DNA from: Chamaesiphon sp. 336R_metabinner_41
Lineage (GTDB): Bacteria > Cyanobacteriota > Cyanobacteriia > Cyanobacteriales > Chamaesiphonaceae
Assembly (NCBI GenBank): GCA_025359915.1
Contig: JANYDE010000047.1
Span: forward strand, 1-45,308
DNA: 45,308 bases
Reading direction: 5' to 3'
The notes beneath the pieces were generated by a model. The model was not told where the DNA came from and made no database searches. It was given only the letters and a program-made list of their open reading frames with translations. This document shows, piece by piece, positions 33,361 to 45,308 of this stretch (position 1 is its first letter; every line of letters begins with the position of its first letter). The position numbers and the translations under genes were made by a program.

Positions 33361-34320
33361 TTACTCTAGTAAATTTCCTAAATCTTTAGTAGCTTTACCC
33401 TGCAACTGATGACGATTATCGTCATAAATCATCAACGTACTCAAATTTTGATGTCTAGACAAGGATTGAGCAGCTCTGACATTCCCCTCACTCACATCTA
33501 AATAAGCCGTAATCGCACTATGTCTCACCCGATGGGGTGAAAGATCGATCCCAACAGGTTCAGCATACTTCTTGACGATTCTAGCGATATCTTTACCATC
33601 TAATCGATGACCATTATTACTCACAAATAAGGCTGAATTTTCACCACTCGGCTTAACTAGTAAATAGTCATTAATAGCACTAACTACGGCTGGATTGAGA
33701 TCGATCGATTGCAGTTCTAGTGTCCCCTTCCCCAGAATCATCAATCTACTTTCTTGAGGTAGGAAGTTAGATTGATCGAGTGAAACAATTTCACCCCTTC
33801 TCAAAGCATTATCCCATAACAATCTACAGATAGCATAATCACGCTTACCTAATATTGTAGATCGATCGATCTCTGCCAACACACTACGATATTCATCAAC
33901 AGTCCTCCCTCTCGTATCCCGATATTTCTGACTTCTTAATCCCTTCACATCGCTCAAACTAAAGCCACATAAACCTCGCTTTCTCGCATAATCAACCAAC
34001 GATTTAAGAGCTGACAAACGTTGATTGATAGTAGCACTAGATAACTTCAAATCGATTAATATCTTTCGATAAGTCAGTACAAAGGTGAGAGCATCAGCTT
34101 GAGAGAGTAAGAGAAAGCTCTGAATGGCATCTGAAATTGAAAGATCTGGGTAAACCTTCAGACAAAAATCAGCCAGAGCTTTTGTGTAAGATCTCCGAGT
34201 AGTTTCTTTAATCTGAAGATCCAGAAAACTATCCCAGATCTCCACTCTCGAATCGGGGATAATAGAAACGACTTCTAACGCACTATTTATTCTAATTAGT
34301 TGAGAAATTGGAATTTGCAT
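33361..34320 (-). CDS. Tyrosine recombinase/integrase
   Basis: Of 319 aa. The N-terminal SAM-like DNA-binding domain (about 25-115) has the pattern TRRSYTKALADFCLKVYPDL. The catalytic domain shows the complete set: Arg 174 (ALRRGE), Lys 198, His 263-x-x-Arg 266 (HRVRHS), His 290 and nucleophile Tyr 299 (STLMIYD). The size and lack of a long N-terminal arm-binding domain resemble XerC/D-type and plasmid resolvase-like integrases more than phage integrases. It is the last gene in the leftward group with the toxin-like genes, and a MITE-like repeat adjoins its 3' end. Confidence 0.88.
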   Translation of the reverse strand: MQIPISQLIRINSALEVVSIIPDSRVEIWDSFLDLQIKETTRRSYTKALADFCLKVYPDLSISDAIQSFLLLSQADALTFVLTYRKILIDLKLSSATINQRLSALKSLVDYARKRGLCGFSLSDVKGLRSQKYRDTRGRTVDEYRSVLAEIDRSTILGKRDYAICRLLWDNALRRGEIVSLDQSNFLPQESRLMILGKGTLELQSIDLNPAVVSAINDYLLVKPSGENSALFVSNNGHRLDGKDIARIVKKYAEPVGIDLSPHRVRHSAITAYLDVSEGNVRAAQSLSRHQNLSTLMIYDDNRHQLQGKATKDLGNLLE

Positions 34321-34379
34321 TATCTATTACATATTAAATTCGATCGAATCGCTATGATGGCTGATAATTCACGGATGTT

Positions 34380-35369
34380 TCACATAAATGGAAAAATCTC
34401 ATCACCCGATTCACCAATAGTTCTGATAGTTTTATCTAACCCCAGATCGATCGCCAATAAGTCAATACCATCAATTAATTTAGAGCGAAAAGCTTCAGAA
34501 ATTGTCAAATTTTCATAACAATGAAATCTAAGATCGGCATCTGCTTGAAATTTGCTTAATGCAGCTTTTAATGGTATTATAACTCTATAGGCAGTCTCGG
34601 CTTTCTCGATTGCTAAATGTGGTATGAATTTCTGATTTCTCAAGAAAGCTAGATCGATCAGATCGCGTGAATGAACGCTAGGATCGTTATATCGATCCGC
34701 ATTGGCTAATAATTTACTCGTAAAACAATCACTAATACTCAAACACTTAACTGGCGACCAACTCGGTTGACGGGGTGGATCTAACTCGAACCGTGCTTCG
34801 GCAATAATTTCCGTCTTAATTGGAATTCCATCGACAATAATCGCCATTCTAATCCCATATTGGTCGGCAGTAAATCGTTCGATTTCTAGATCTGAGTTAT
34901 CTTTTAATAGAATACGTGGATTGAGATCGCTAATTGCATTACGCAACTTGCGATAGTCAGATCCCAAGGCACAGATAAAGTCAATATCATTACTAGTACG
35001 ATATTCACCCAGATCTAATGAGATTAGTGTACCACCACCAAAATAAGCTCGACATTCACTCAGAAATTCACAATTTAAACTTTCCAGAACTCTATAAATT
35101 AATTGATGATGGTCGATCTGAAAGTCCATAAATTCACTGGATAACCACGATTTGCGATCGAATGCGAGTTGTTTGATAAATGCCAACTCACTAGCAGGAA
35201 GATTAGTAATGTGACGATACCGCCAACCACGTTCATAACTAGCAAGCATTTCTAGTTGAGTCAATCGGTAGACATCCGCAATTTGCCAGCCGAGAAATTC
35301 TAGAAAAGGTAGTTTATAAGGCTGAACGATCTCCATAATATCAATATTTCCACCAACCAATTCAACCAA
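34380..35369 (-). CDS. AbiEii-like nucleotidyltransferase
   Basis: Of 329 aa. The nucleotidyltransferase signature is GGGTLISL (111-118) followed by YRTSNDIDF with Asp 128 and Asp 130, as in AbiEii/AbiGii toxins. Downstream, CFTSKLLANADRYN and SRDLIDLAFL match the conserved Lys and RDhhDL motifs. AbiEii-type proteins are the toxins of type IV systems and act on NTP/tRNA. The usual AbiEi antitoxin with its winged-helix domain is missing. Its start overlaps the end of the GNAT gene by eight bases. The first 85 residues are an unusual N-terminal addition. Confidence 0.75.
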   Translation of the reverse strand: MVELVGGNIDIMEIVQPYKLPFLEFLGWQIADVYRLTQLEMLASYERGWRYRHITNLPASELAFIKQLAFDRKSWLSSEFMDFQIDHHQLIYRVLESLNCEFLSECRAYFGGGTLISLDLGEYRTSNDIDFICALGSDYRKLRNAISDLNPRILLKDNSDLEIERFTADQYGIRMAIIVDGIPIKTEIIAEARFELDPPRQPSWSPVKCLSISDCFTSKLLANADRYNDPSVHSRDLIDLAFLRNQKFIPHLAIEKAETAYRVIIPLKAALSKFQADADLRFHCYENLTISEAFRSKLIDGIDLLAIDLGLDKTIRTIGESGDEIFPFM

Positions 35370-35883
35370 ATATTTGCGATATACTTTTCATAGTCCGAAA
35401 TAGTTTGTCAGAACAACCAGGAAAAGTTTTAAAATCAAATCTTTGGTAGAATCTAACTGCATCATCATCAATTGCATCTACTACCACAGCAAAAGAGCCA
35501 GTGGCTTTACTGATATTCAGACTACGTTGAAAAGCATCCATGATGATTAATTTTCCCCAGCCAAATCCTTTATAGTCTAAATCTATGGCTAATCTACCGA
35601 TTAAAGTAACGCCAACAATCGGATATTTAGGCAGCTTTTTAATAATTGCTTCGGGTAATTGTTCCAAATTTATCCCACTCATCGACAGAGTGTAATAGCC
35701 AATTATCTTTTGACGAGCGAGATCGTAAATAACATAAGGAATCGCGATGTTTTTCTTTTTATCTTGGGTGGCACAGACATGCAAATATCGATCGAGTTGT
35801 TCGTTACCACAGCTAAAAGCTGCTTTATCATGATGAGCGGCGAGGAGTTCAATCGAAAAATCAGTAGATTCAGGATTTAGCAC
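35362..35883 (-). CDS. GNAT acetyltransferase toxin (TacT/AtaT type)
   Basis: Of 173 aa, GTG start. The toxin-type start FSCGNEQLDRYLHVCATQDK is the usual signature, followed by GYYTLSMSGI, the acetyl-CoA-binding loop region RLAIDLDYKGFGWGKLIIMD and DDDAVRFYQRFDF near the end. Such toxins acetylate the amino group of charged tRNAs and stop translation. Its start follows the stop of the DUF1778 antitoxin gene with no gap, and its end overlaps the nucleotidyltransferase gene. The trio looks like one transcript. Confidence 0.88.
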   Translation of the reverse strand: MLNPESTDFSIELLAAHHDKAAFSCGNEQLDRYLHVCATQDKKKNIAIPYVIYDLARQKIIGYYTLSMSGINLEQLPEAIIKKLPKYPIVGVTLIGRLAIDLDYKGFGWGKLIIMDAFQRSLNISKATGSFAVVVDAIDDDAVRFYQRFDFKTFPGCSDKLFRTMKSISQIFG

Positions 35884-36204
35884 TCACCTTTGTCCCTGTT
35901 TACTCATCATCTGCTGGTACCATTTAGCATCAGCAATCCCGCGTTCGCTGGGAGGCTCAGGATTTAACAATGCTTCAGCAAATATTAGCCGATCTCGATC
36001 GGTTAATTCAATCAGTTCACGATCTTTAATCGTTTGGGTAGCCGCATCAGCCAAAACGGAAATCATGAATTCAGTCAGGTTCTGTCCGCGTAAGCTGGCG
36101 GCTCTCTCCATCAGTTGTTTTTGATCCACCGTTACGCGAGCTTCTAGTCGAGCAGTCTTACCAACTTTATGAGGTTTAGTGGTGGGATCTGTGTCTAGTT
36201 CCAT
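35884..36204 (-). CDS. DUF1778 (TacA-like) ribbon-helix-helix antitoxin
   Basis: About 106 aa from the ATG at 36204. Longer starts at 36240 and 36312 are in frame but add sequence unrelated to the family. The N-terminal RHH domain reads KTARLEARVTVDQKQLMERA, ASLRGQNLTEFMISVLADAA. The C-terminal region (RLIFAEALLNPEPPSERGIA) is the toxin-neutralising arm. DUF1778 proteins pair with GNAT toxins and repress their own operon. A cluster of inverted GGACAT/ATGTCC motifs lies upstream. Confidence 0.85.
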   Translation of the reverse strand: MELDTDPTTKPHKVGKTARLEARVTVDQKQLMERAASLRGQNLTEFMISVLADAATQTIKDRELIELTDRDRLIFAEALLNPEPPSERGIADAKWYQQMMSKQGQR

Positions 36205-36231
36205 GCTTTTAATTCGAGAAATTGGGTGATT

Positions 36232-36314
36232 TAAGGACATTATATCATAGTACGGCTTTAGAGCGTACAATACTTGAACTGTCAATGTCCGCAAAGGACA
36301 ATTATCGGACATTA
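36232..36314. promoter_or_regulatory. Candidate operator region of the toxin-antitoxin operon
   Basis: Contains GGACATTA at 36235-36242, AATGTCC at 36284-36290, GGACA at 36296-36300 and CGGACATTA at 36306-36314, in both orientations. A separate GTAC-GTAC palindrome lies between. Multiple half-sites upstream of an RHH antitoxin gene fit autorepression. The region also separates the operon from the divergent HNH unit. Confidence 0.4.
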
Positions 36315-36388
36315 GAATCTGATTAGGTAAATTTGAGGCGTTCGGCTCGATCGTGATATAATTGACTGGTCAAACACCTCTTACCCAT

Positions 36389-36733
36389 ATGTCCCAACCA
36401 TTGCAATATTTGACAAATGAGCAGGGTGAACGTGTTGGAGTCTTATTAGACTGGAACACCTATGCTAGACTTGCCAATCCACTAGGTTTGGATGAGGAAT
36501 GTTTGGTGGGATTGAGTATCGATGAGTTAACAGCTCTGGCAAGTTGTAAATTGGCTGTGGCAGAGCAAACCCATTTGGACAATCTAGTGTCCAGAAATAC
36601 AGAATCGTTGCTTTCCACCGATGAAATAGCTGAGTTAGATGACTTATTGGCGAAGGCAGATCGATTAACGATTCTCAAAACTCGTGCTAGATACACGCTC
36701 AAGTGCTTGGAACAGAGTGTAAAGGCAGCATGA
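36389..36733 (+). CDS. Small antitoxin-like protein upstream of an HNH endonuclease, 114 aa
   Basis: The start at 36389 gives MSQPLQYLTNEQGERVGVLL, then DWNTYARLANP. This N-terminal strand-turn-strand-helix is like Phd/YefM-type antitoxins that begin with 'YLTDENG.R.GVVLD...Y'. The remainder is helical and acidic (STDEIAELDDLLAKADRLTI), with the C-terminal KTRARYTLKCLEQSVKAA. Its stop codon overlaps the start of the HNH gene (ATGA), a strong sign of coupled expression. Role as antitoxin or DNA-binding partner is inference. Confidence 0.6.
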   Translation: MSQPLQYLTNEQGERVGVLLDWNTYARLANPLGLDEECLVGLSIDELTALASCKLAVAEQTHLDNLVSRNTESLLSTDEIAELDDLLAKADRLTILKTRARYTLKCLEQSVKAA

Positions 36734-37158
36734 GTGTTTATATTCGGGTTGAATTACAGCGAAAAATTCGAGATCGCTTTGGTGAATGCTGTGCCTATTG
36801 CCAGACAGCAGAATTTCTGACAGCAATGACGTTTGAATTCGAGCATATTATTCCTCTTGCGGTTGGTGGGGAAACGACATTTGAAAATCTTTGTTTTGCC
36901 TGTCCATCTTGTAATCGCTATAAGGGAGATCGTCAGACTGCCATCGATCCAGAAAGCGGCGAAACGGTGGCGTTATTTCATCCCCAGGAGCAAGTTTGGA
37001 AACAACATTTTGTCTGGAGTGAAATTGAGACGGAAATGAGGGGATTGACAGCGGTTGGTCGAGCTACCATTACTGGATTACAGATGAATCGTCCAGCCTT
37101 GGTACGGGCAAGGGCAATGTGGGTTAAATTGGACGAGCATCCGCCAAAGTTGATGTGA
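36730..37158 (+). CDS. HNH endonuclease, 142 aa
   Basis: The HNH fold is clear: a CxxC pair in FGECCAYCQ, EFEHIIPLAVGGETTFENLC with the catalytic His and Asn, then FACPSCNRYKGDR with the second CxxC. The C-terminal part (WSEIETEMRGLTAVGRATIT) is helical and typical of the small cyanobacterial HNH proteins. It overlaps the preceding small gene by four bases. HNH nucleases of this type occur in restriction, homing and toxin-like settings; the exact target is unknown. Confidence 0.85.
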   Translation: MSVYIRVELQRKIRDRFGECCAYCQTAEFLTAMTFEFEHIIPLAVGGETTFENLCFACPSCNRYKGDRQTAIDPESGETVALFHPQEQVWKQHFVWSEIETEMRGLTAVGRATITGLQMNRPALVRARAMWVKLDEHPPKLM

Positions 37159-37223
37159 ATAAATGAGATTGTTTGATGAACTGTATTTTTGTTAGGCGAT
37201 ATGTCTTGAGAGAGGAATAAATA

Positions 37224-37361
37224 ATGGAAGGAAAAGATTTACTAGATCAACTTGAAGTTTGTTGCCCAGTCTGCGGTAGCAATAGTTTCGGGAATGACGA
37301 AACAAATACACTCAGTTGTAATGAATGCGATTATTCGGAGCCAGAACATGAGCCAGATTAG
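37224..37361 (+). CDS. Small zinc-ribbon protein, 45 aa
   Basis: Reads MEGKDLLDQLEVCCPVCGSN followed by a turn and LSCNECDYSEPEHEPD. The two CxxC pairs form a zinc ribbon. GAGAGGAATAAATA before the ATG is a good ribosome binding site. It is too short for many gene finders. It lies 23 bp before the Cys/His-rich gene at 37385 and may be the first gene of the HIRAN/HipA-like transcript. Confidence 0.6.
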   Translation: MEGKDLLDQLEVCCPVCGSNSFGNDETNTLSCNECDYSEPEHEPD

Positions 37362-37384
37362 TCGTTCTGAGGTTTGGTAGGATC

Positions 37385-37870
37385 GTGCCCACTAAAGTCC
37401 CCCACAATTGCTTTCAATGCTCCAAGGTCGGTAATGATGAGGCTAAGTTAAAGTCTTGCTGGGACAGTAAGCTTTGCCCTGCTAGACGGCATTATCATCG
37501 CAATCGTGGCAAGTTGTCGCTAGAACGTAAGGCGAAGCGATTGGGTGCTAGTAATATCGTTGAGATTGCGGTTAATATTCCCACGGGGTTCGCTGCTAGT
37601 GTAATTTTCTATCGAGAACGGCAAGATGCGCCAGTACATGCGATCGCGGCTGAGGTATGGCAGAGCGATCAGGGGAAGGTGTTGATGGTACAGCCGATGC
37701 ACTGTTTGGGTTTGTCTCCGGCTCAGGTGGTGGAGGTGATGGTGGAGATTTTGAAGGCTTGTTCTGGTGAGTTGGGAGTAGAAATTACTAAGTTTGCGAA
37801 TAAAGTGGAGTTACATCCATCTCAATGTCCAATCTTGGATTGTCCGATAAGTAGTACGAAATATGTCTAA
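37385..37870 (+). CDS. Cys/His-rich protein coupled to the HIRAN/HipA-like genes, 161 aa
   Basis: GTG start. The N-terminal 45 residues carry a probable zinc site: CFQC, then CWDSKLCPARRHYHRNRGKL. The rest is an alpha/beta domain (NIVEIAVNIPTGFAASVIFY; VHAIAAEVWQSDQGKVLMVQ; ELGVEITKFANKVELHPSQC). No known family. Its end overlaps the start of the HIRAN gene by eight bases, so they are translated together. A zinc-binding, nucleic-acid-binding or antitoxin-like role is possible but unproven. Confidence 0.55.
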   Translation: MPTKVPHNCFQCSKVGNDEAKLKSCWDSKLCPARRHYHRNRGKLSLERKAKRLGASNIVEIAVNIPTGFAASVIFYRERQDAPVHAIAAEVWQSDQGKVLMVQPMHCLGLSPAQVVEVMVEILKACSGELGVEITKFANKVELHPSQCPILDCPISSTKYV

Positions 37871-38555
37871 AGTTACCGCGTTATATTTAGGGGCTGAAGT
37901 TGAAGATAAGCTCTGGTTCCCCGTTAGGAAGATGATTTGGCATGGGGAGAAGTACCATACTGGATGCGTTGGTGGTGTGAAGGGTTTAATTGAGGCTGCT
38001 CCACTGTGGCGGCATTATTTTCAGCCGGAAGCTTTTGGGTTAATTAAGACTACTCGCGATATTCATTGTGATTATGCTTGTAGAATGCCTTTGGATAGAC
38101 CTGAAGAAATGCCTTGGTATTTACCTAGTTTAGGATTACCAGCAGATATTCTCAATCCAATTGCGTTTGTGGCTAGAAATGGTGGTTATCGGGAAACTGA
38201 CAGTCTCGATATTTTTCCTGAAGTTGAAGCAGATTCGGATGGTTGTTATCGGTTTTATTTTTTACTCAGGAAGCTGTATTTAGTTGAGGAAGCTGCTGTA
38301 GACAAAGTGGTTCGAGGAGATGATATCGAGTGCGGTGATGGCTGGGCAATCCATCAACCGACAGGGAACAGGATTGGGATTTTGCCAGGTTATATTAGAG
38401 CTTTATTTACAGAGCACAGATCGCAGGTAGAGATGAAAGTTCACCAAGTCAATATGGAAGGACTTCTACAAGAGAGATTATTATGTTCGTTGACTTGTAA
38501 GGGATTTATCCCTTTTACTACTGCTGAATATTTGCCACTAGGAGATCTCAATTGA
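37863..38555 (+). CDS. HIRAN-domain protein paired with a HipA-like kinase, 230 aa
   Basis: The N-terminal unit has a KLWFPVRKMIWHGEKYHTG pattern like the WFPVGRL block of these proteins. The middle carries GYRETDSLDIFPEVEADSDG, and the C-terminal half is HIRAN-like: RFYFLLRKLYLVEEAAVDKV, then the strand block NRIGILPGYIRALFTEH. HIRAN domains bind DNA 3' ends in eukaryotic HLTF; in bacteria they occur next to kinases and helicases. It overlaps the gene before it (8 bp) and the kinase after it (4 bp, TTGA). It may supply the N-terminal part missing from the kinase (inference). Confidence 0.65.
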   Translation: MSKVTALYLGAEVEDKLWFPVRKMIWHGEKYHTGCVGGVKGLIEAAPLWRHYFQPEAFGLIKTTRDIHCDYACRMPLDRPEEMPWYLPSLGLPADILNPIAFVARNGGYRETDSLDIFPEVEADSDGCYRFYFLLRKLYLVEEAAVDKVVRGDDIECGDGWAIHQPTGNRIGILPGYIRALFTEHRSQVEMKVHQVNMEGLLQERLLCSLTCKGFIPFTTAEYLPLGDLN

Positions 38556-39904
38556 TATCTTCATTTTCAATTTATCGAGTTGAGCCAAAAGATCGCTATG
38601 GTACTGACACAGGTGTTGATGCTGAGGGTCGTTTTTACAAGTATTGGTGCAATCATCCCGAACTGGGGCATTGTTTATTTAAAGCCGCAAGTCCCGATGG
38701 ATTAACTCCTAGAGAACGTCGCTGGGATTGGAGTGAGAAGGTTGCGGCTGAACTAGGGAAGTTGTTGGGTTTACCCATCGCTCGGACTGAGTTTGCGGTT
38801 GGATATGCTCAAGAGCTTGGGGGTTACATTGATGGGACTTTATCAGTAGATTATACGCCTATGAATGGGCAAGTAATGAGCTGTCGTCGGTTTCTGTCGA
38901 TCGTCGATCCACTGTATGAGGTGGAGTCGGTAGATGGTTTAGATGCGTATAATGTTGAGAATGTTCTAAACTATCTGCAAAGGCACTCGGTTGGTTTACC
39001 GCTGAATTGGTATCCGCCATTGGGAATTGAAAATGGTGCAGATGTGATGGTGGGATATCTACTATTCGATGCGTTGATTTCGGCAACAGATAGACATGAT
39101 GAAAATCTAGAGCTGGCTATTTTAGAAGCGGGCTATTTTCTCTGTCCAACTTTCGACCACGGTGATAGTTTGGGTGTTAAGTTGTTAGCTGAGTCTAGAG
39201 CAAACGAGTATCGACGTGCAAGAAGAGTTGGGGCGGTGAATATGAGCATCGTAAGTCACCCTTCAAATCTTGTCCCACAGCAGCTAGAACTAGATTTGTG
39301 GCAGATACTAGCTGTCGCGCAAACCGAACCTACTACGGTCGGGTTTATCGAGCTGTGCGGTCATTTAGATGGGTTGAATCTGGTTGATGGGGCGCGGGCG
39401 ATTGGAGAGATTGCCGAGATTTATCGAGTTCGAGCGGAGACAATTTTAACTGAGATTACTGCGGCTTATTTACCAGTTAAAGAGCCAATTGTACCTGATG
39501 AGTTATGGGCGCATCTGTATCGTTCTACTTTTATTTTACGGGATGAGCATCTGTATTTGGAAGTGGAGCATGATTATCCAATAGAGCGTCAGTCGGTGAT
39601 TAAGTTGGGGGTGGAGGCGGATGAGGTGGCTGCTTGCGTGATGATTCAGGCGGTAATGGGAAATGCTCACGAGGAAGAGATCGAGCTGTGGGCGAGTCGG
39701 ATTCGGGGGGTGATGGTGGAATGTGGGGAGATGTTGTTGGTGGAGTTGCAACAGAAATCGGGTTTGAATCTGGTAGATTTATGGTTGGGGCTGTTGTTGG
39801 GGGATACTGGTTGTGTGGTTAGTCGTCAGTTGGACTATGAAATTGATTTTAATGTCGATTTTTACGATCGATCTGGGATTTGGATCGTTGAGCTAGCAAG
39901 GTAA
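38552..39904 (+). CDS. HipA-like Ser/Thr kinase, 450 aa
   Basis: TTG start overlapping the previous stop, with AGGAG upstream. The ATP-site lysine is in HCLFKAAS (Lys 44) and the helix-C acidic residue in WDWSEKVAAELGKLLGLPIA. The catalytic loop is ATDRHDEN (Asp 180, Asn 185) and the metal-binding loop is TFDHGDSLG (Asp 202). This is the HipA/phosphatidylinositol-kinase-like fold; the usual HipA N-subdomain is lacking. After about residue 220 there is a C-terminal region of some 230 residues without a recognised domain. HipA-type kinases phosphorylate tRNA synthetases or ribosomal proteins; the target here is unknown. Confidence 0.75.
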   Translation: MISSFSIYRVEPKDRYGTDTGVDAEGRFYKYWCNHPELGHCLFKAASPDGLTPRERRWDWSEKVAAELGKLLGLPIARTEFAVGYAQELGGYIDGTLSVDYTPMNGQVMSCRRFLSIVDPLYEVESVDGLDAYNVENVLNYLQRHSVGLPLNWYPPLGIENGADVMVGYLLFDALISATDRHDENLELAILEAGYFLCPTFDHGDSLGVKLLAESRANEYRRARRVGAVNMSIVSHPSNLVPQQLELDLWQILAVAQTEPTTVGFIELCGHLDGLNLVDGARAIGEIAEIYRVRAETILTEITAAYLPVKEPIVPDELWAHLYRSTFILRDEHLYLEVEHDYPIERQSVIKLGVEADEVAACVMIQAVMGNAHEEEIELWASRIRGVMVECGEMLLVELQQKSGLNLVDLWLGLLLGDTGCVVSRQLDYEIDFNVDFYDRSGIWIVELAR

Positions 39905-39941
39905 GCATTAATTGATGTGATTGAGTAATATTAGGGGCAAA

Positions 39942-41813
39942 ATGTCGAAACAGAATCCAGAGAATCCAAGCAAATCGAATCAGTTCCTCAAGGCTTTAAC
40001 TCAACCAGAAATTACTCTATTACTTGATGCATTATTAGGAGTTTTATCTTCTGAATTAAAGGAACAAGCTATCTCCCAACTTTCGGCAGACACCCAACAA
40101 ACTGTCAGACAAATCCTCGATCGACCATTGCTTCAAGCTGCAACGAAATCGACTGTGATAGAAACAGTTTCTCTGGCAAAACAGGCTGAGATTTGGTCTG
40201 AACTTTGGCGAGAGTGGGATACAATTGTCTGCGAAGCTGCGGAAGAGGAAGGGAAATATATTGTTCGAGAAGCTGATTGGGAACAACCTTACTTTGACAC
40301 GACTACATTTATTGAAGATTTAGAGAGTGTTGCCAATAAAATGCAACCGCTAATCAAAATCGCCTTCGAGCATAAATTTAGTCCCGAACCTGATTTTGTC
40401 ACAGCACTTCTGGACGCAGAAACAGATGTTACTTCAGGCATTCCAGATTGGATGGAAATTGATGGGTTGTGTTTAGAGCAGCATTTAACTGATTGTTTAT
40501 TGCAAGGAGAATGGCTAAATATTCGGCATCAAGGACAAGATGCTTTTCAGTTTGCAGAGTGTATTCGCGAGTACGAACAGCAATTCGAGGAAATACAATT
40601 AGATAGTGATACAGTTTTTGAGTTTCTAATTCAGTTATCTGAACCAGATCGGCAAATTATCTTAACAGGATTAACCGCAAACAAAGAAACGGCTATTTGG
40701 AAAAGTGTACTAGCAAATATACATTCTTGTTGGCAACAGTTTTATTTGCATTCGATCGAGCAATATGCACCAGATCGCTACCTAAAAGAATTGCGAACAA
40801 CAATTCCGCAACAGTGGCAAAATGGGTTGCCGATTATTGAGGAATTATTGAATCAACAGAATTATTCAGAAAGTTTGGTAGCGATCGAAGAAACACTCAG
40901 TTCATTACTGAAAAACAATCGCAGTGATGTAGCCTGGACACCGGAAACTTCAATGTTGGTAGCTATTTCAGGTTTATATTATGATAGCAATTCTACCAAT
41001 ATTAATATGTTGCTGCGCTACTATCAGCAAACTGCACAGGGATTGAATCAAACCGAACGAGCTAATGCACTAGAAATTCAACAAATAGGGATCGATCGAT
41101 GGTTTAATTGGTCGAAGATGTTTGCTGCTTTTGTTGAAACTTCTCTATCAGAATCTACTCGTCAAGCTTTGTTTACATCCTGGAAAGATTATGTCGTGAG
41201 TCGAACTAACTCTTATAGCTGGAAAAAAGTTGATAGCTGGTGGCTTTGTTGGTTGATTGACAGTATTGACGATCGCCAAAAAGGAGTAAGTTGGTTTCAA
41301 TCACAAATAACTCAATGGCTGGATAATCTACCTATAGATAAAACTCAATTAGGCGAGAATTACGATCGACTGCGATTGTTGACTAAAGATTTGACAGAGA
41401 TCTATCATCAAGGACAATCTAGCTATTCTCAATTCTATCTAGTAGTGATTCACCCTAAAGGATTTTCTACTCAAAGTGATGAATCTCGACGAGAGTATCT
41501 AAAAGCATCTGCACCAGATAATTTGTTCGATCTGGTGATGAATTATTGGAAAGTCAATCTTCACCAATTTGTGCCGAAACCGGAGTTAGTCCAGAATGCT
41601 GAGTACACAAAACATGCTCAGTGGATGGTTGCATTGAAGGAACTATCACCACAAGACTATGAAACTCTCTTGGCTCAGTGGAAAGTGGTACATAAACGCC
41701 GAATTAATCTGTGGAAAGCTATGAAACAGATGGGGTCAGCTAAGATGAATGTCCGAGTAACTATCGAGGTTTCAACGCCCCCAACTGCCATAGCTATAGC
41801 AACAGATGAGTGA
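39942..41813 (+). CDS. Large all-helical protein of unknown function, 623 aa
   Basis: The ATG at 39942 has AGGGGCAAA before it; a TTG at 39921 gives seven more residues. It is cytosolic and almost wholly helical, rich in Gln, Trp, Leu and Glu (KQAEIWSELWREWDTIVCEA; WSKMFAAFVETSLSESTRQA; WWLCWLIDSIDDRQKGVSWF). I see no zinc, nucleotide-binding or catalytic motif. The next gene is coupled to it, so they act together. From memory, homologues of the downstream protein sit beside SWIM zinc-finger genes, but this protein has no CxC...CxH SWIM motif. Confidence 0.6.
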   Translation: MSKQNPENPSKSNQFLKALTQPEITLLLDALLGVLSSELKEQAISQLSADTQQTVRQILDRPLLQAATKSTVIETVSLAKQAEIWSELWREWDTIVCEAAEEEGKYIVREADWEQPYFDTTTFIEDLESVANKMQPLIKIAFEHKFSPEPDFVTALLDAETDVTSGIPDWMEIDGLCLEQHLTDCLLQGEWLNIRHQGQDAFQFAECIREYEQQFEEIQLDSDTVFEFLIQLSEPDRQIILTGLTANKETAIWKSVLANIHSCWQQFYLHSIEQYAPDRYLKELRTTIPQQWQNGLPIIEELLNQQNYSESLVAIEETLSSLLKNNRSDVAWTPETSMLVAISGLYYDSNSTNINMLLRYYQQTAQGLNQTERANALEIQQIGIDRWFNWSKMFAAFVETSLSESTRQALFTSWKDYVVSRTNSYSWKKVDSWWLCWLIDSIDDRQKGVSWFQSQITQWLDNLPIDKTQLGENYDRLRLLTKDLTEIYHQGQSSYSQFYLVVIHPKGFSTQSDESRREYLKASAPDNLFDLVMNYWKVNLHQFVPKPELVQNAEYTKHAQWMVALKELSPQDYETLLAQWKVVHKRRINLWKAMKQMGSAKMNVRVTIEVSTPPTAIAIATDE

Positions 41814-41836
41814 ATATCAAGATGAGTGAATATCAA
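41805..41836 (+). repeat. 16-bp tandem duplication at a gene junction
   Basis: GATGAGTGAATATCAA occurs twice, back to back (41805-41820 and 41821-41836). Each copy contains ATGAGTGA, where the stop of the upstream gene and the start of the downstream gene meet. The first copy holds the used stop, the second the used start. Confidence 0.9.
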
Positions 41837-42943
41837 TATTACGAATTTCAGACGATCGACTGTCCGTTGACACCAAAAGAACAGGCAGAAATTAAAGAGC
41901 TATCTAGTCGGGTAAAACTGACACCGACTCAAGCAATATTCCTCTATAACTATGGGGATTTTCGCAACAAGCCAGAAGATGTATTGACTAAATACTTCGA
42001 TCTGATGTTTTATATCGCTAACTGGGGGACTTGGCGATTGATATTTCGGTTCCCAAAAGCGATCGTCGATCCGAAATTATTTCAAATTTACACTTTACGC
42101 AATGCCATAACAATTACCCAAACTTCCAAATATATTGTCCTAGATCTTGAAATTAATCAGGAGGAGGGAGGAGCATCAGGCTGGATCGACGGCGAGGGCT
42201 GGTTGTCCAAATTGTTGCCACTGCGGGAAGATCTGTTGGGTGGAGATCTGCGCTTGTTATATCTGGTATGGCTACGAGTGGCTTCAGAACTGGCGGGATA
42301 TGTGTTGGATGAAGATCCAGTTGAACCACCAATTCCCGCGAATCTGAGCCAGCTTTCACCTGCTCTGAAGGAATTTATCAAACTGGTAGAACTCGACTCC
42401 GATTTGGTTGCGGCTGCGGCTCTGGAAAGTCCGAATCGAGAAACGGGTAAGGATTCACCGTTGGAAGGCTGGCTATCTGCGCTGACAGAAGCAGAACGGC
42501 AAGAATTCTTACTCAAACTCGTTCGGCGCGAACCTCATGCTGACTTACAATTGATTAATCGATTGAAAGAGTTAGCAGGGGCTGGAAAATCGACTCCTCA
42601 GTCAGTTCCAGGACATCGACGATTATCAGAATTACAAGAAATTGCTAATACGGTAAAAGAGCAGCGTCAAGAGCAAGAACGAAATGCAGCCAAAACAAAG
42701 CGGAATCAAGCATTAGCAGCACTAGCACCGAAGGAAGCCCAAACCTGGGAACGAGTGGTAAAGCTGATTGAATTTAAACAATCTCAACCTTATGATGAGG
42801 CAACTGCTTTACTCAAAGATTTGCGCGATTTGGCAGAACAGCAGGGACGATTGCCTGAGTTTAGCAAACGCTTTGAGCAACTCAAGTCGGACTACAGCAG
42901 TCGTCCAGCATTAATGAAGCGATTTAGATCGATCCGTGTTTGA
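41822..42943 (+). CDS. Conserved protein of unknown function (YYEFQ family), 373 aa
   Basis: Start at the second copy of the duplicated ATG; the first copy reads only seven codons before a stop. The N-terminal MSEYQYYEFQTIDCPLTPKE followed by ELSSRVKLTPTQAIFLYNYG is a pattern I recall from proteins of many bacteria, of unknown function. The block FDLMFYIANWGTWRLIFRFP and the LREDLLGGDLRLLYLVWLRV region are also conserved-looking. The C-terminal third is a long charged coiled coil (TVKEQRQEQERNAAKTKRNQ). It is transcribed with the helical protein upstream and with the genes that follow. Confidence 0.65.
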   Translation: MSEYQYYEFQTIDCPLTPKEQAEIKELSSRVKLTPTQAIFLYNYGDFRNKPEDVLTKYFDLMFYIANWGTWRLIFRFPKAIVDPKLFQIYTLRNAITITQTSKYIVLDLEINQEEGGASGWIDGEGWLSKLLPLREDLLGGDLRLLYLVWLRVASELAGYVLDEDPVEPPIPANLSQLSPALKEFIKLVELDSDLVAAAALESPNRETGKDSPLEGWLSALTEAERQEFLLKLVRREPHADLQLINRLKELAGAGKSTPQSVPGHRRLSELQEIANTVKEQRQEQERNAAKTKRNQALAALAPKEAQTWERVVKLIEFKQSQPYDEATALLKDLRDLAEQQGRLPEFSKRFEQLKSDYSSRPALMKRFRSIRV

Positions 42944-42999
42944 GATTTACGAACAAATAATCTCTGGAAATATCAAGTTTATTGTAGGCAAAAACTTTA

Positions 43000-43221
43000 A
43001 TGCAAGATCGAGTAATTGACTATTTAGAAGAACACATTCCCGAACTAGCAGAGTCTGCGGTAACTCAAGCTTATTGGCAGTCTTTAGCGGCTGGAAATAG
43101 CGTCTTAGAAAGTGAAAATGGGATTATCTACGAACGGTTTCCTGATGGTTCTAGTAAGATGGTGAAAGCGATTGAGCCACCCACTCCAGTCGCAATTGGG
43201 GCGAGACGGAAATTATTATGA
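43000..43221 (+). CDS. Hypothetical protein, 73 aa
   Basis: Soluble protein without a known domain: a helical start (MQDRVIDYLEEHIPELAESA) and a short strand hairpin (ENGIIYERFPDGSSKMVKAI) with a basic end. The middle IIYERFPDGS looks conserved. No clear ribosome binding site. It lies 23 bp before the topoisomerase gene and 56 bp after the coiled-coil gene, within the same gene train. Confidence 0.5.
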   Translation: MQDRVIDYLEEHIPELAESAVTQAYWQSLAAGNSVLESENGIIYERFPDGSSKMVKAIEPPTPVAIGARRKLL

Positions 43222-43244
43222 ACGCTCGAATGTTCGTCTAAATT

Positions 43245-45308
43245 ATGCGAAATCTGCTGATTGTTGAATCTGCTGGCAAAATTAAAAAGCTCAAAAGCAT
43301 CCTCGGCTCCGACTGGGATGTCAAGGCTTCAATCGGGCATATTCGCCAACTCGCCAATGATGGAGAAGGCTCGCTGGGGTTTGAATTGGGTTCAAATACA
43401 ATCGACTGTCGCTACATTCCCCGCGACGACAGAGCTAAACAAACGATCGCTGGACTAATCGCCGCAGCCAAACAAGCAGATCGAGTATTCATCGCCTCAG
43501 ATCCCGATCGCGAAGGCGAGGTCATCGGTTGGCATATCGCTCAAGTATTAAAGCTCAAACAGCCCCAGCGTGTTGTCTATCAGGAGATTACCGAGTCTGC
43601 TGTCAAAAAAGCAATTGCTTCTCCCCGCTCCCTAGACATGGCTCTAGTAGAAGCAGGTAGGTGTCGCGATTGCCTGGATAAATTGGTGGGCTATAAAGGA
43701 TCGCCGCTAATCTGGCGACTCAACAACGGAGCCAAAAGCGTCGGTAGAGTCCAGTCTGCAACCCTTCATCTAGTTTGCCAACGAGAGCGGGAAATTCAAG
43801 CCTTCATACCTCAAGATTATTGGTCGGTATTTGTAGACTATGCTGAAGGGTTCAGAGCCTTCTACAATGGCACTGCTCAGGCTGTCTCGCCAACAGCAGA
43901 TGAGGAAACTAGCGATGATGCGGGAGCGATCGAAAAAGTCGCCGAATCGACTCGCATATTGAGTCAAGCTGAAGCTGACAGGTTAGTGGAAATCGGTAAA
44001 GCTAACCCCCATCAAGTTAAAACCATTGAAGGTAAACTTGCACCCAAAAAGCCACCCGCTCCATTTATCACCTCATCGCTCCAACAAGCGGCAGGTTCGC
44101 GATTGAAGTTTAGTCCCGAACATACGATGTCCGTCGCTCAGAAGCTCTACGAAGCGGGGTTAATCACCTATATGCGGACTGATTCGGTCGAACTCAGTCA
44201 GGATTTTTGTAAAGCTGCAAGGGAATGGCTGATGTCCCATGACAAAGATAATGTACCGACGAAGGTATCGAAACAGCGCAGTTCTAAAGACGCTCAGGAA
44301 GCTCATGAAGCGGTCAGACCGACAGATATCACCAAAGCCTCAAGCGAACTCAAACAGCAGCTTTCAGCGGATGAATTCGCGCTGTACGTGATGATTTGGA
44401 TGCGATCGATCGCTTCCCAATGTAAACCCGCACAGATTCGTAAAACCACGATCGTTACTCAATCTGGCGAGATCCAGTGGCAAGCCAGAGGGCAAATGCT
44501 GGAATTTGCTGGCTATGCCAAGTATTGGAAGGACATTAGCGGTGATGCCGTATTGCCTAGCTTGCAACCAAAACAACCACTTACCGCAGCGAATGTCAGT
44601 CACGAGCAAAAGCAAACCCAACCACCACCATGTTATAGCGAGCCTAAACTCGTTCAATTGATGGAACGTCGTGGCATCGGTCGTCCTTCAACTTATGCGC
44701 CGACGATTGCCACACTCAAGCAGCGTAATTATGTCGAGTTAGTCAAGAGCAAAGTGCAACCGACGACTGTGGGTTTGCAAGTAGATGATTTTCTGATGCA
44801 AGCTTTGCCAGAGTTGATTCAATCGGAGTTTACTGCGGGGATGGAAACTCAACTCGATGCGATTTCCAAGGGTCAGCAGGAATGGCAAAGTTATCTAATT
44901 GAATGGAACCGGAGCTATTTCGCACCAGCGTTAAGTAAGGCGACTAAGAATCTACCGGAGCAGGATTATGGATCGTTTCAGGGAAAGGAGCTAGAGAAAT
45001 CACGTTTTAAATGTCCGACTTGTAGCAAGTCGATGTCGAAGGTACCGACAAAGAAGGTGAAGAAGGGCTATTTTCTCAAGTGTGAGGATGGCTGTAAAGA
45101 TCCAGATGGCAAAGGGTTAGTGATGTTTTGGTCGGATCGATCCAATGAATGGCAGATTCCGCAACCTAAAACCGAGCAGTCATCGCCAGCGAAGCTCACC
45201 GAACATTCTTGTCCAGTTTGCCGGAAACCGCTAGAAGAATACAATTACAGTAAGGATGGGCAAGCAAAATCAATGCTGCGATGTTCGGATGCGGAAGCTA
45301 GAACCAAG
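43245..45308 (+). CDS. topA: Type IA DNA topoisomerase (TopA-like), 3' end beyond window
   Basis: The frame is open from the ATG at 43245 to the last base (688 codons seen). The TOPRIM domain has LLIVESAGKIKKL with Glu 8 and ASDPDREGE with Asp 86, Asp 88 and Glu 90. The DNA-cleaving Tyr is residue 309 in LITYMRTDS; HEAVRPTD, MERRGIGRPSTYAPTIATLK and the C-terminal zinc ribbon (CPTCSKSMSK, CEDGC; then CPVCRKPL) are in order. It relaxes negative supercoils. It differs from a chromosomal TopA in position: it ends an accessory gene train. Such extra copies are common on plasmids and integrative elements, which fits the recombinase nearby. Confidence 0.9.
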   Translation, partial: MRNLLIVESAGKIKKLKSILGSDWDVKASIGHIRQLANDGEGSLGFELGSNTIDCRYIPRDDRAKQTIAGLIAAAKQADRVFIASDPDREGEVIGWHIAQVLKLKQPQRVVYQEITESAVKKAIASPRSLDMALVEAGRCRDCLDKLVGYKGSPLIWRLNNGAKSVGRVQSATLHLVCQREREIQAFIPQDYWSVFVDYAEGFRAFYNGTAQAVSPTADEETSDDAGAIEKVAESTRILSQAEADRLVEIGKANPHQVKTIEGKLAPKKPPAPFITSSLQQAAGSRLKFSPEHTMSVAQKLYEAGLITYMRTDSVELSQDFCKAAREWLMSHDKDNVPTKVSKQRSSKDAQEAHEAVRPTDITKASSELKQQLSADEFALYVMIWMRSIASQCKPAQIRKTTIVTQSGEIQWQARGQMLEFAGYAKYWKDISGDAVLPSLQPKQPLTAANVSHEQKQTQPPPCYSEPKLVQLMERRGIGRPSTYAPTIATLKQRNYVELVKSKVQPTTVGLQVDDFLMQALPELIQSEFTAGMETQLDAISKGQQEWQSYLIEWNRSYFAPALSKATKNLPEQDYGSFQGKELEKSRFKCPTCSKSMSKVPTKKVKKGYFLKCEDGCKDPDGKGLVMFWSDRSNEWQIPQPKTEQSSPAKLTEHSCPVCRKPLEEYNYSKDGQAKSMLRCSDAEARTK

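Follow-up and report, generated by a model that had tools for sequence, protein, structure and literature searches.

Sequence comparisons point to a HipN-HipI-type gene pair inserted into a resident locus of Chamaesiphon and later broken by a deletion

The DNA analysed here (the window, 45,308 nucleotides) is contig C10 of the genome of Chamaesiphon sp. 336R_metabinner_41, which is 4.2 Mb in 169 contigs. Four consecutive genes at 37224-39904, for a small zinc-ribbon protein, a Cys/His protein (CH), a protein with a HIRAN domain and a HipA-like kinase, were taken in a first-pass annotation for a possible multi-part kinase system. What looks like a four-part system is most likely a stack of two modules, not a new machine. 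The reading that we consider probable is that the window holds two nested modules. The resident module would be a locus of an HNH endonuclease, the zinc ribbon, CH and a gene named X here. A HipS-HIRAN gene and a HipA-like kinase gene would have been inserted at the CH/X junction, and a later deletion of 308 base pairs (bp) would have removed the C-lobe and stop codon of the kinase and fused 216 kinase residues to X. The family of the inserted pair would be toxin-antitoxin-like or abortive-infection-like.

The four open reading frames (ORFs) were found at the coordinates given by the first-pass annotation. Its description of all four genes as overlapping applies to the last three: CH and the HIRAN gene share 8 bp and the HIRAN and kinase genes 4 bp, whereas the zinc-ribbon gene ends 23 bp upstream of CH. 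The features are as follows.

37224-37361, + strand: small zinc-ribbon protein (45 amino acids), weak Pfam matches only; member of the resident zinc ribbon-CH-X locus, in the same position in the G248, G249 (two loci), G246 and G245 loci
37385-37870, + strand: CH, 161 amino acids, with a CxxC...CW....C..RR zinc-finger-like N-terminus (alignment); conserved partner of X
37846-39274, + strand: 1,429-bp insertion that contains the HipN-type gene and the kinase remnant (blastn and junction comparison)
37863-38555, + strand: HipN-type protein (the HIRAN ORF), 230 amino acids, HipS-like at residues 4-121 and HIRAN at 124-223; putative antitoxin or sensor
38552-39904, + strand: kinase ORF, 450 amino acids as read; fusion of a HipA-like kinase remnant with gene X
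38552-39199, + strand: HipA-like kinase, residues 1-216 only, with the N-lobe and catalytic motifs K44, D180, N185 and D202; C-lobe missing
39199/39200, no strand: deletion junction, 308 bp of paralogue C96 absent (blastn, window against C96)
39242-39904, + strand: gene X, 220 amino acids, fused in frame to the truncated kinase here and a separate ORF in C96, C13 and sister genomes; C-terminal winged helix predicted

Insertion of the pair and loss of the kinase C-lobe

A same-genus genome has the orthologous locus (G248:C174) with zinc ribbon, CH, X and the downstream genes, and without the HIRAN-kinase pair. Its DNA is 91.9% identical to the window over 36856-37845, 93.8% over 39275-41790 and 86.5% over 41820-45301 (blastn). 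Where the window has 1,429 bp between 37845 and 39275, this locus has just the 6 bp TCGATG. Contig C13 of the source genome, which starts inside CH, has the same empty junction. At these empty sites CH ends in CPRCHNN, X starts with MPQQLEL and the two genes overlap; in the window the end of CH is rewritten at the insertion, with CPISSTKYV in place of CPRCHNN. CH also runs straight into X in four more loci (L100, L101, L102 and L107). These comparisons identify the HipN-kinase pair as an insertion at the CH/X junction. A second, different junction between such a pair and CH was observed in G252:C23 (L103:291-2350), where the order is HIRAN, kinase, CH and then another gene.

The kinase was compared with its 94%-identical paralogue on contig C96 of the same genome. 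Window positions 38313-39199 align to C96, and the alignment resumes at 39198-39560, 308 bp further along C96 (blastn). In C96 the 308-bp segment completes a 331-residue kinase including the C-lobe and its own stop codon, and gene X starts after it. Since 308 bp is not a multiple of three, the frame in the window passes the former stop and enters X, with a linker (39200-39241) read out of the ancestral kinase frame. The 450-residue ORF had been taken for one kinase; on this alignment it is a deletion fusion, kinase to residue 216 and gene X from 39242 on. In paralogues C119, C132 and C120 the counterpart of the missing segment is the C-terminal lobe, to which it aligns. The kinase family profile, closer by sequence to CtkA than to HipT, aligns to CtkA (PDB entry 3akj) through this segment (profile 47-297, E 5.5e-20), and 13 of the 60 kinase columns conserved at 70% or more fall beyond residue 216. 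Against the PADLOC profile PDC-M03A the window kinase matches positions 3-206 of 305 (E 1.4e-42) and the intact C96 kinase positions 2-301. The insertion was also inspected for a target-site duplication. TTGTCC stands at 37840-37845 and at 39270-39275, and this candidate was rejected: 6 bp is weak, the right end in C96 reads TTGCCT and the six empty-site bases are lost. In C96 (L009:753-4758) a tyrosine recombinase gene and a 1,001-residue ORF that looks by eye like a transposase lie where the paralogous X breaks off.

Lys 44, Asp 180, Asn 185 and Asp 202 are present, as first annotated, and are invariant in the 29 other aligned kinases. With these residues kept, a check of the active site alone could not reveal the deletion. 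Because the C-lobe is missing, the window kinase is probably dead and is unlikely to be toxic. The window copy would then encode an antitoxin and a dead kinase, and might still protect against the C96 paralogue.

Architecture, relatives and linkage of the pair

The HIRAN protein of the window matches no Pfam family at E up to 1. It matches the PADLOC profile PDC-M03B (E 8.6e-17), and its paralogue on contig C132 of the source genome matches Pfam HIRAN (E 2.1e-7). For CH, the HIRAN protein and the kinase ORF (P0002-P0004) neither Pfam nor NCBIfam returned a usable family; PADLOC was informative for P0003 and P0004, and structure for P0003. An AlphaFold2 model of the HIRAN protein from 34 sequences reached a predicted local distance difference test score (pLDDT) of 93.1 and a predicted template-modelling score (pTM) of 0.89. 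Foldseek alone returned nothing for this model under E 0.001 (best 3k2y, 0.05), and the fold was resolved with VIA-align. Residues 4-121 match 7vkb_B (Z 6.3, 3.0 Å, 99/102), 7ab3_E of the HipBST complex (Z 5.8, 3.4 Å, 99/101) and the HipA N-domain (3dnv, Z 5.4; 7czo, Z 4.3). Residues 124-223 match 3k2y_D (Z 8.3), the HLTF HIRAN domain (4s0n_A, Z 6.7) and Rad5 (6l8n, Z 6.8). We take 7vkb_B and 7ab3_E to be HipS chains, and 3k2y and the matched part of Rad5 to be HIRAN domains, in part from chain length. The Z values are modest, yet the top twelve rows are all HIRAN, HipS or HipA, and each match covers about one domain. A PDB sequence search with the HIRAN alignment also suggested SWI3 (E 0.012 and up); this relationship is weak and was not believed, the fold comparison giving HIRAN and HipS. 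The HIRAN protein is thus predicted to combine a HipS and a HIRAN fold, the layout named HipN by Gerdes et al. (2021). The first-pass annotation had noted a kinase without the HipA N-subdomain and suggested that the HIRAN protein could supply it; the model agrees, placing a HipS fold in the partner.

The hipIN system comprises the kinase HipI and HipN, a HipS-HIRAN putative antitoxin (Gerdes et al., 2021; PMC8262856). It has a short HipA-like kinase without N-subdomain-1 and a partner with HipS-like and HIRAN domains. The window pair shares the kinase without N-subdomain-1 (catalytic Lys at 44, HipS fold in the partner) and the modelled partner, HipS-like at its N-terminus and HIRAN at its C-terminus. 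It differs in that the core kinase domain is incomplete (no C-lobe; complete in C96), the kinase is fused to another gene, the pair is nested in an unrelated operon and the HipN-type gene lies upstream of the kinase, not downstream. PDC-M03 is a PADLOC candidate defence pair of M03A and M03B. Adjacent matches to both are found in overlapping genes of the window, and they are full-length in the paralogues, whereas the window kinase covers only part of the A profile. The term PDC-M03 was not found in the literature search, nor PDC in a search of the PADLOC server paper (PMC9252829). In HipL a kinase, HipS and HIRAN form one protein; the same three domains are divided between two genes here. The pair also differs from HipBST and HipBA, as first annotated. 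A HipS-fold partner upstream of a kinase without the N-subdomain is shared with HipBST, but HipS is fused to HIRAN in the window and no HipB-type helix-turn-helix was matched among eight neighbouring proteins (Pfam, NCBIfam). For HipBA, the same search gave no helix-turn-helix family beside the kinase, and the kinase is not a full-length HipA. The claim that no HipB-like helix-turn-helix is present therefore holds for family matches and has to be qualified in one respect: the C-terminus of X is predicted, with modest confidence, to be a winged helix, which is not a HipB-type match. HipAD/DS-6, a HipA-like kinase with DUF3037/DUF1829, is described in PMC13092281 as protecting against phage. It resembles the window pair in joining a HipA-like kinase to a non-HipB partner and differs in the partner, which is HipS-HIRAN here; neither DUF3037 nor DUF1829 was matched (Pfam at E up to 1). 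In Gram-positive bacteria, diDNase genes are reported to have HIRAN and HipA genes as neighbours (PMC11706625, 2025).

Linkage was examined in a 244-genome cyanobacterial draw and 40 relatives, with the source genome included. This gave 45 HIRAN-type places (tallies of 25 and 27 rows, with 7 in common) and 32 intact or nearly intact kinases (12 + 20). A HIRAN gene lies close by in all 32. Among these, the C96 copy runs off its contig; one kinase in G249 is without the first 26 profile positions and is separated from its HIRAN gene by 1.4 kb that include an ORF; those of G081 and G180 are 308-residue ORFs, although just some 100 profile positions align; and two kinase domains sit inside ORFs of about 2,150 residues. 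The reverse does not hold, since 13 of the 45 HIRAN places have no intact kinase. The kinase is truncated, split or a remnant in the window, G266, G246:C620, G264, G250, G129:C7, G064, G167:C3 and G030. No kinase lies within about 1.5 kb in G072, G129:C9 and G099; G246:C248, near a contig end, is counted among the 13 and is undecided. In this sample no intact kinase was seen without HIRAN, and HIRAN was seen without an intact kinase, the one-sided pattern expected of a toxin and its obligatory antitoxin. HIRAN precedes the kinase in the window and most loci of the genus; in the 244-genome draw outside the source genome the kinase comes first wherever both are present.

Several further observations were made on such pairs. 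Two HipN-HipI pairs stand in direct tandem in L109:1672-4953 (G248:C176). A tyrosine recombinase gene lies immediately upstream of the pair in L013:5351-8103 (C120) and L108:33-2414 (G246:C620). The pair adjoins an integrase in the marine Vibrio (Vinavirales) phage PQ189359 (L150:10953-13770) and the C. difficile phage PP767789 (L151:3092-5890); a position beside the phage integrase is a usual site for cargo. HipN of C132 matches 5 of 50,697 phage records, and a scan of viral contigs with nine closer HipN proteins gave no relative. On contig C37 of the source genome (L014:2321-8785) a HipA-like kinase domain starts a 2,154-residue ORF, and in G246:C339 one starts a 2,147-residue open frame, each with a HipN-type gene upstream. 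The rest of the C37 ORF has no Pfam match (E up to 1, bar one weak match), no PHROGs match and no believable PDB match. KADFDGDQ was noted in it by eye, a sequence reminiscent of the NADFDGD motif of RNA polymerase.

Assessment of alternative readings

For the family as a whole, a toxin-antitoxin or abortive-infection module is the most likely function. The HipS domain would hold the kinase inactive and the HIRAN domain would bind DNA ends. Exposed ends, from phage DNA or damaged forks, would free the kinase, which would phosphorylate a translation target and stop growth. A DNA-end- or phage-sensing module had been suggested in the first-pass annotation; the idea itself is not new. Sensing of phage DNA ends by HIRAN with release of the kinase was already proposed in section 15 of PMC8262856, and the literature search found no experimental test of a DNA-end/HipS-HIRAN antitoxin mechanism.

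Some points weigh against the nested and broken pair or its function as proposed here. Kinase fragments without a HIRAN gene occur in G155, G087:C26, G249 near 2.49 Mb and G245:C129. At most 11 candidates per genome were scored in the 25-row HIRAN tally, so that HIRAN genes may be missed. Differences in gene length may account for part of the kinase losses that spare HIRAN, and the loci, through shared ancestry, are not independent of one another. Between the window and C96 the ratio of nonsynonymous to synonymous substitution rates (dN/dS) is 0.19 in the kinase part (216 codons), which indicates that this part was under constraint during much of the interval since the two copies diverged; the value averages the periods before and after the deletion and cannot date it. 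For the HIRAN part the ratio is 0.31 (79 codons). At the 15 residue differences the rarer residue is in the window copy at 8 and in C96 at 3, with 4 ties; dating of the deletion by these polarised substitutions was rejected, the sites being too few (8 vs 3 of 15). The deletion rests on a single assembly and a single paralogue.

That the pair is a non-toxic DNA-damage signalling kinase and not a toxin-antitoxin module is unlikely. The literature search found no report of toxicity, and several loci lie on the 6.3-Mb contig G249:C1, probably a chromosome. HIRAN domains of HLTF and Rad5 act in fork repair, work that is cited in PMC8262856. Against a signalling role, intact kinases were not seen alone, the partner outlives loss of the kinase and kinase decay is frequent. 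The pair also lies near phage integrases, tyrosine recombinases and genes that look by eye like relaxases, and another pair with a HipA-like kinase, HipAD/DS-6, is phage-protective.

For the window copy, the fusion could be a working chimera in which X, with its winged helix, takes the place of the C-lobe and anchors the kinase on DNA. No stop interrupts the frame at the junction, the set of catalytic residues is complete and both halves show purifying selection (dN/dS 0.19 and 0.12-0.17). We regard this as improbable: the whole C-lobe is gone, though present in the other paralogues and in CtkA, the linker is out of the ancestral frame and no second kinase-X fusion was found among the fetched kinase loci. 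There is likewise little probability that the kinase is intact in the cell and that assembly joined two copies wrongly at the junction. In favour of this, the assembly consists of 169 contigs and contains several related copies, and both C96 and C13 end inside this gene set. However, the window is 6% divergent from C96 before the junction and 11% after it, so that a plain stretch of C96 does not account for the join, and the junction has 2-bp GA microhomology, as real deletions often do.

The resident CH-X locus and the meaning of the nested pair

CH was inspected at 40 loci outside the source genome. They comprise all 11 places in the 244-genome phylum draw, 18 in the 40 relatives (18 of 27 match rows; the other 9 had no locus) and 11 of the 60 PLSDB plasmid records with a CH match; the relatives were viewed for about 1.5 kb on each side. 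X is next downstream of CH, within about 300 bp, in 10 of 11, 16 of 18 and 11 of 11, respectively (37/40). L093 was counted although a small ORF separates the two genes, and the X genes of L096, L097 and L162 are incomplete or fragmented. At the three remaining loci CH is followed by a contig end (L086), lies in a damaged locus where a single ORF contains both CH and a fragment of X (L047) or is followed by another gene (G252:C23, L090). HIRAN and kinase genes stand beside CH at one of the 40 loci (G252:C23), and among the kinase loci, retrieved with flanks of about 1.5 kb, CH was seen only in the window and in G252:C23, the C96 contig ending before CH would be visible. The conserved partner of CH, judged by this gene neighbourhood, is X and not the kinase. 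The view of zinc ribbon, CH, HIRAN protein and kinase as one module with a zinc protein as antitoxin is therefore largely refuted and retains very little probability: the genes are contiguous, overlap by 8 and 4 bp and recur as HIRAN, kinase and CH, in another order, in G252:C23, but the orthologous site is empty in G248:C174 and C13 and CH keeps company with X. What is conserved is the linkage of HIRAN and kinase, not their grouping with zinc ribbon and CH.

CH and X are clearly kept by selection, with dN/dS of 0.12-0.17 for X (against G248, C13 and C96) and 0.03-0.09 for CH (against G248 and C13). The model of X is only fair (pLDDT 70, pTM 0.37). Its last 75 residues resemble a winged helix, which is the likely fold of the C-terminus; the fold search was weak (best Foldseek E 0.26, VIA Z up to 7.6). 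Searching the PDB by sequence was of no help for X or CH (best E 5.8 and 0.17). The genes around them in the window are as follows.

33361-34320, - strand: tyrosine recombinase at the edge of a toxin/defence gene group (Pfam Phage_integrase 1.5e-19)
36703-37158, + strand: HNH endonuclease (PtuB/IscB-like HNH), upstream neighbour in the resident locus (Pfam HNH 7.9e-12, PADLOC PtuB 1.6e-13)
39921-41813, + strand: gene Y, 630 amino acids, no assigned function, common to G248:C174 (blastn 93.8% over 39275-41790; hidden Markov model (HMM) match)
41810-42943, + strand: gene Z, 377 amino acids, no assigned function, common to G248:C174 (blastn, HMM)

The stretch at 33361-37158 is a cluster of the recombinase and toxin/defence genes. 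It includes AbiEi-AbiEii in a single ORF (PADLOC AbiEii 1.2e-73, AbiEi 9.5e-24), a GNAT acetyltransferase with a TacA antitoxin (Pfam 1.8e-20) and a weakly RelB-like gene (E 0.12) that overlaps the HNH gene.

Elsewhere the genes just upstream of CH vary: HNH; AbiEii, a YafQ-like toxin, YhcG nuclease and Uma2 by Pfam; HicAB and RES phosphorylase as annotated. In Nostoc-type loci a tyrosine recombinase directly adjoins CH. In the plasmids a tyrosine recombinase is annotated near CH in 9 of 11 records, compared with 3 of 11 control stretches taken about half a record away (one-sided Fisher p 0.015). Toxin-antitoxin annotations were found in 5 of 11 and 2 of 11, which is not significant. Of the CH stretches, three measured about 8.5 kb and one 10.6 kb, compared with 14.5 kb for controls, a difference that works against the recombinase claim. 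The 11 records were hand-picked from the best 25 of the 60 matches, not drawn at random, and three come from one strain. It is a tentative possibility that CH, X and the tyrosine recombinase form the core of a cyanobacterial mobile or cargo-collecting element. The three genes adjoin one another in Nostoc-type loci, whereas at other loci they are interspersed with or flanked by toxin and defence genes: HicAB, VapC/Phd, RES, AbiEii, YafQ-like, YhcG, Uma2, HNH and, here, HipN-HipI. The zinc-finger-like CH and winged-helix X would then bind DNA as accessory factors, directing recombination or regulating expression of the cargo. A literature search on a cyanobacterial tyrosine-recombinase/toxin-antitoxin hotspot found no such element described in the titles and abstract openings returned.

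The window pair is ordinary in kind, a degenerate HipN-HipI-like (PDC-M03) pair in an unrelated operon, and the mechanism of its family is plausible and already published as a proposal. The nested reading removes a false four-part candidate and explains how it arose, from a defence-type pair that came to lie in another operon and was then broken. The genomic asymmetry (32/32 compared with 13/45) independently supports the proposal, already in print, that HipA-like kinases have HipS-HIRAN proteins as their antitoxins, and the genome of this Chamaesiphon contains a closely related intact and broken pair that are suited to a clean test of this proposal. A more novel lead is offered by CH and X, which on many cyanobacterial plasmids lie near a tyrosine recombinase gene; if they do mark a mobile element, the pair in the window would be cargo that came in between CH and X.

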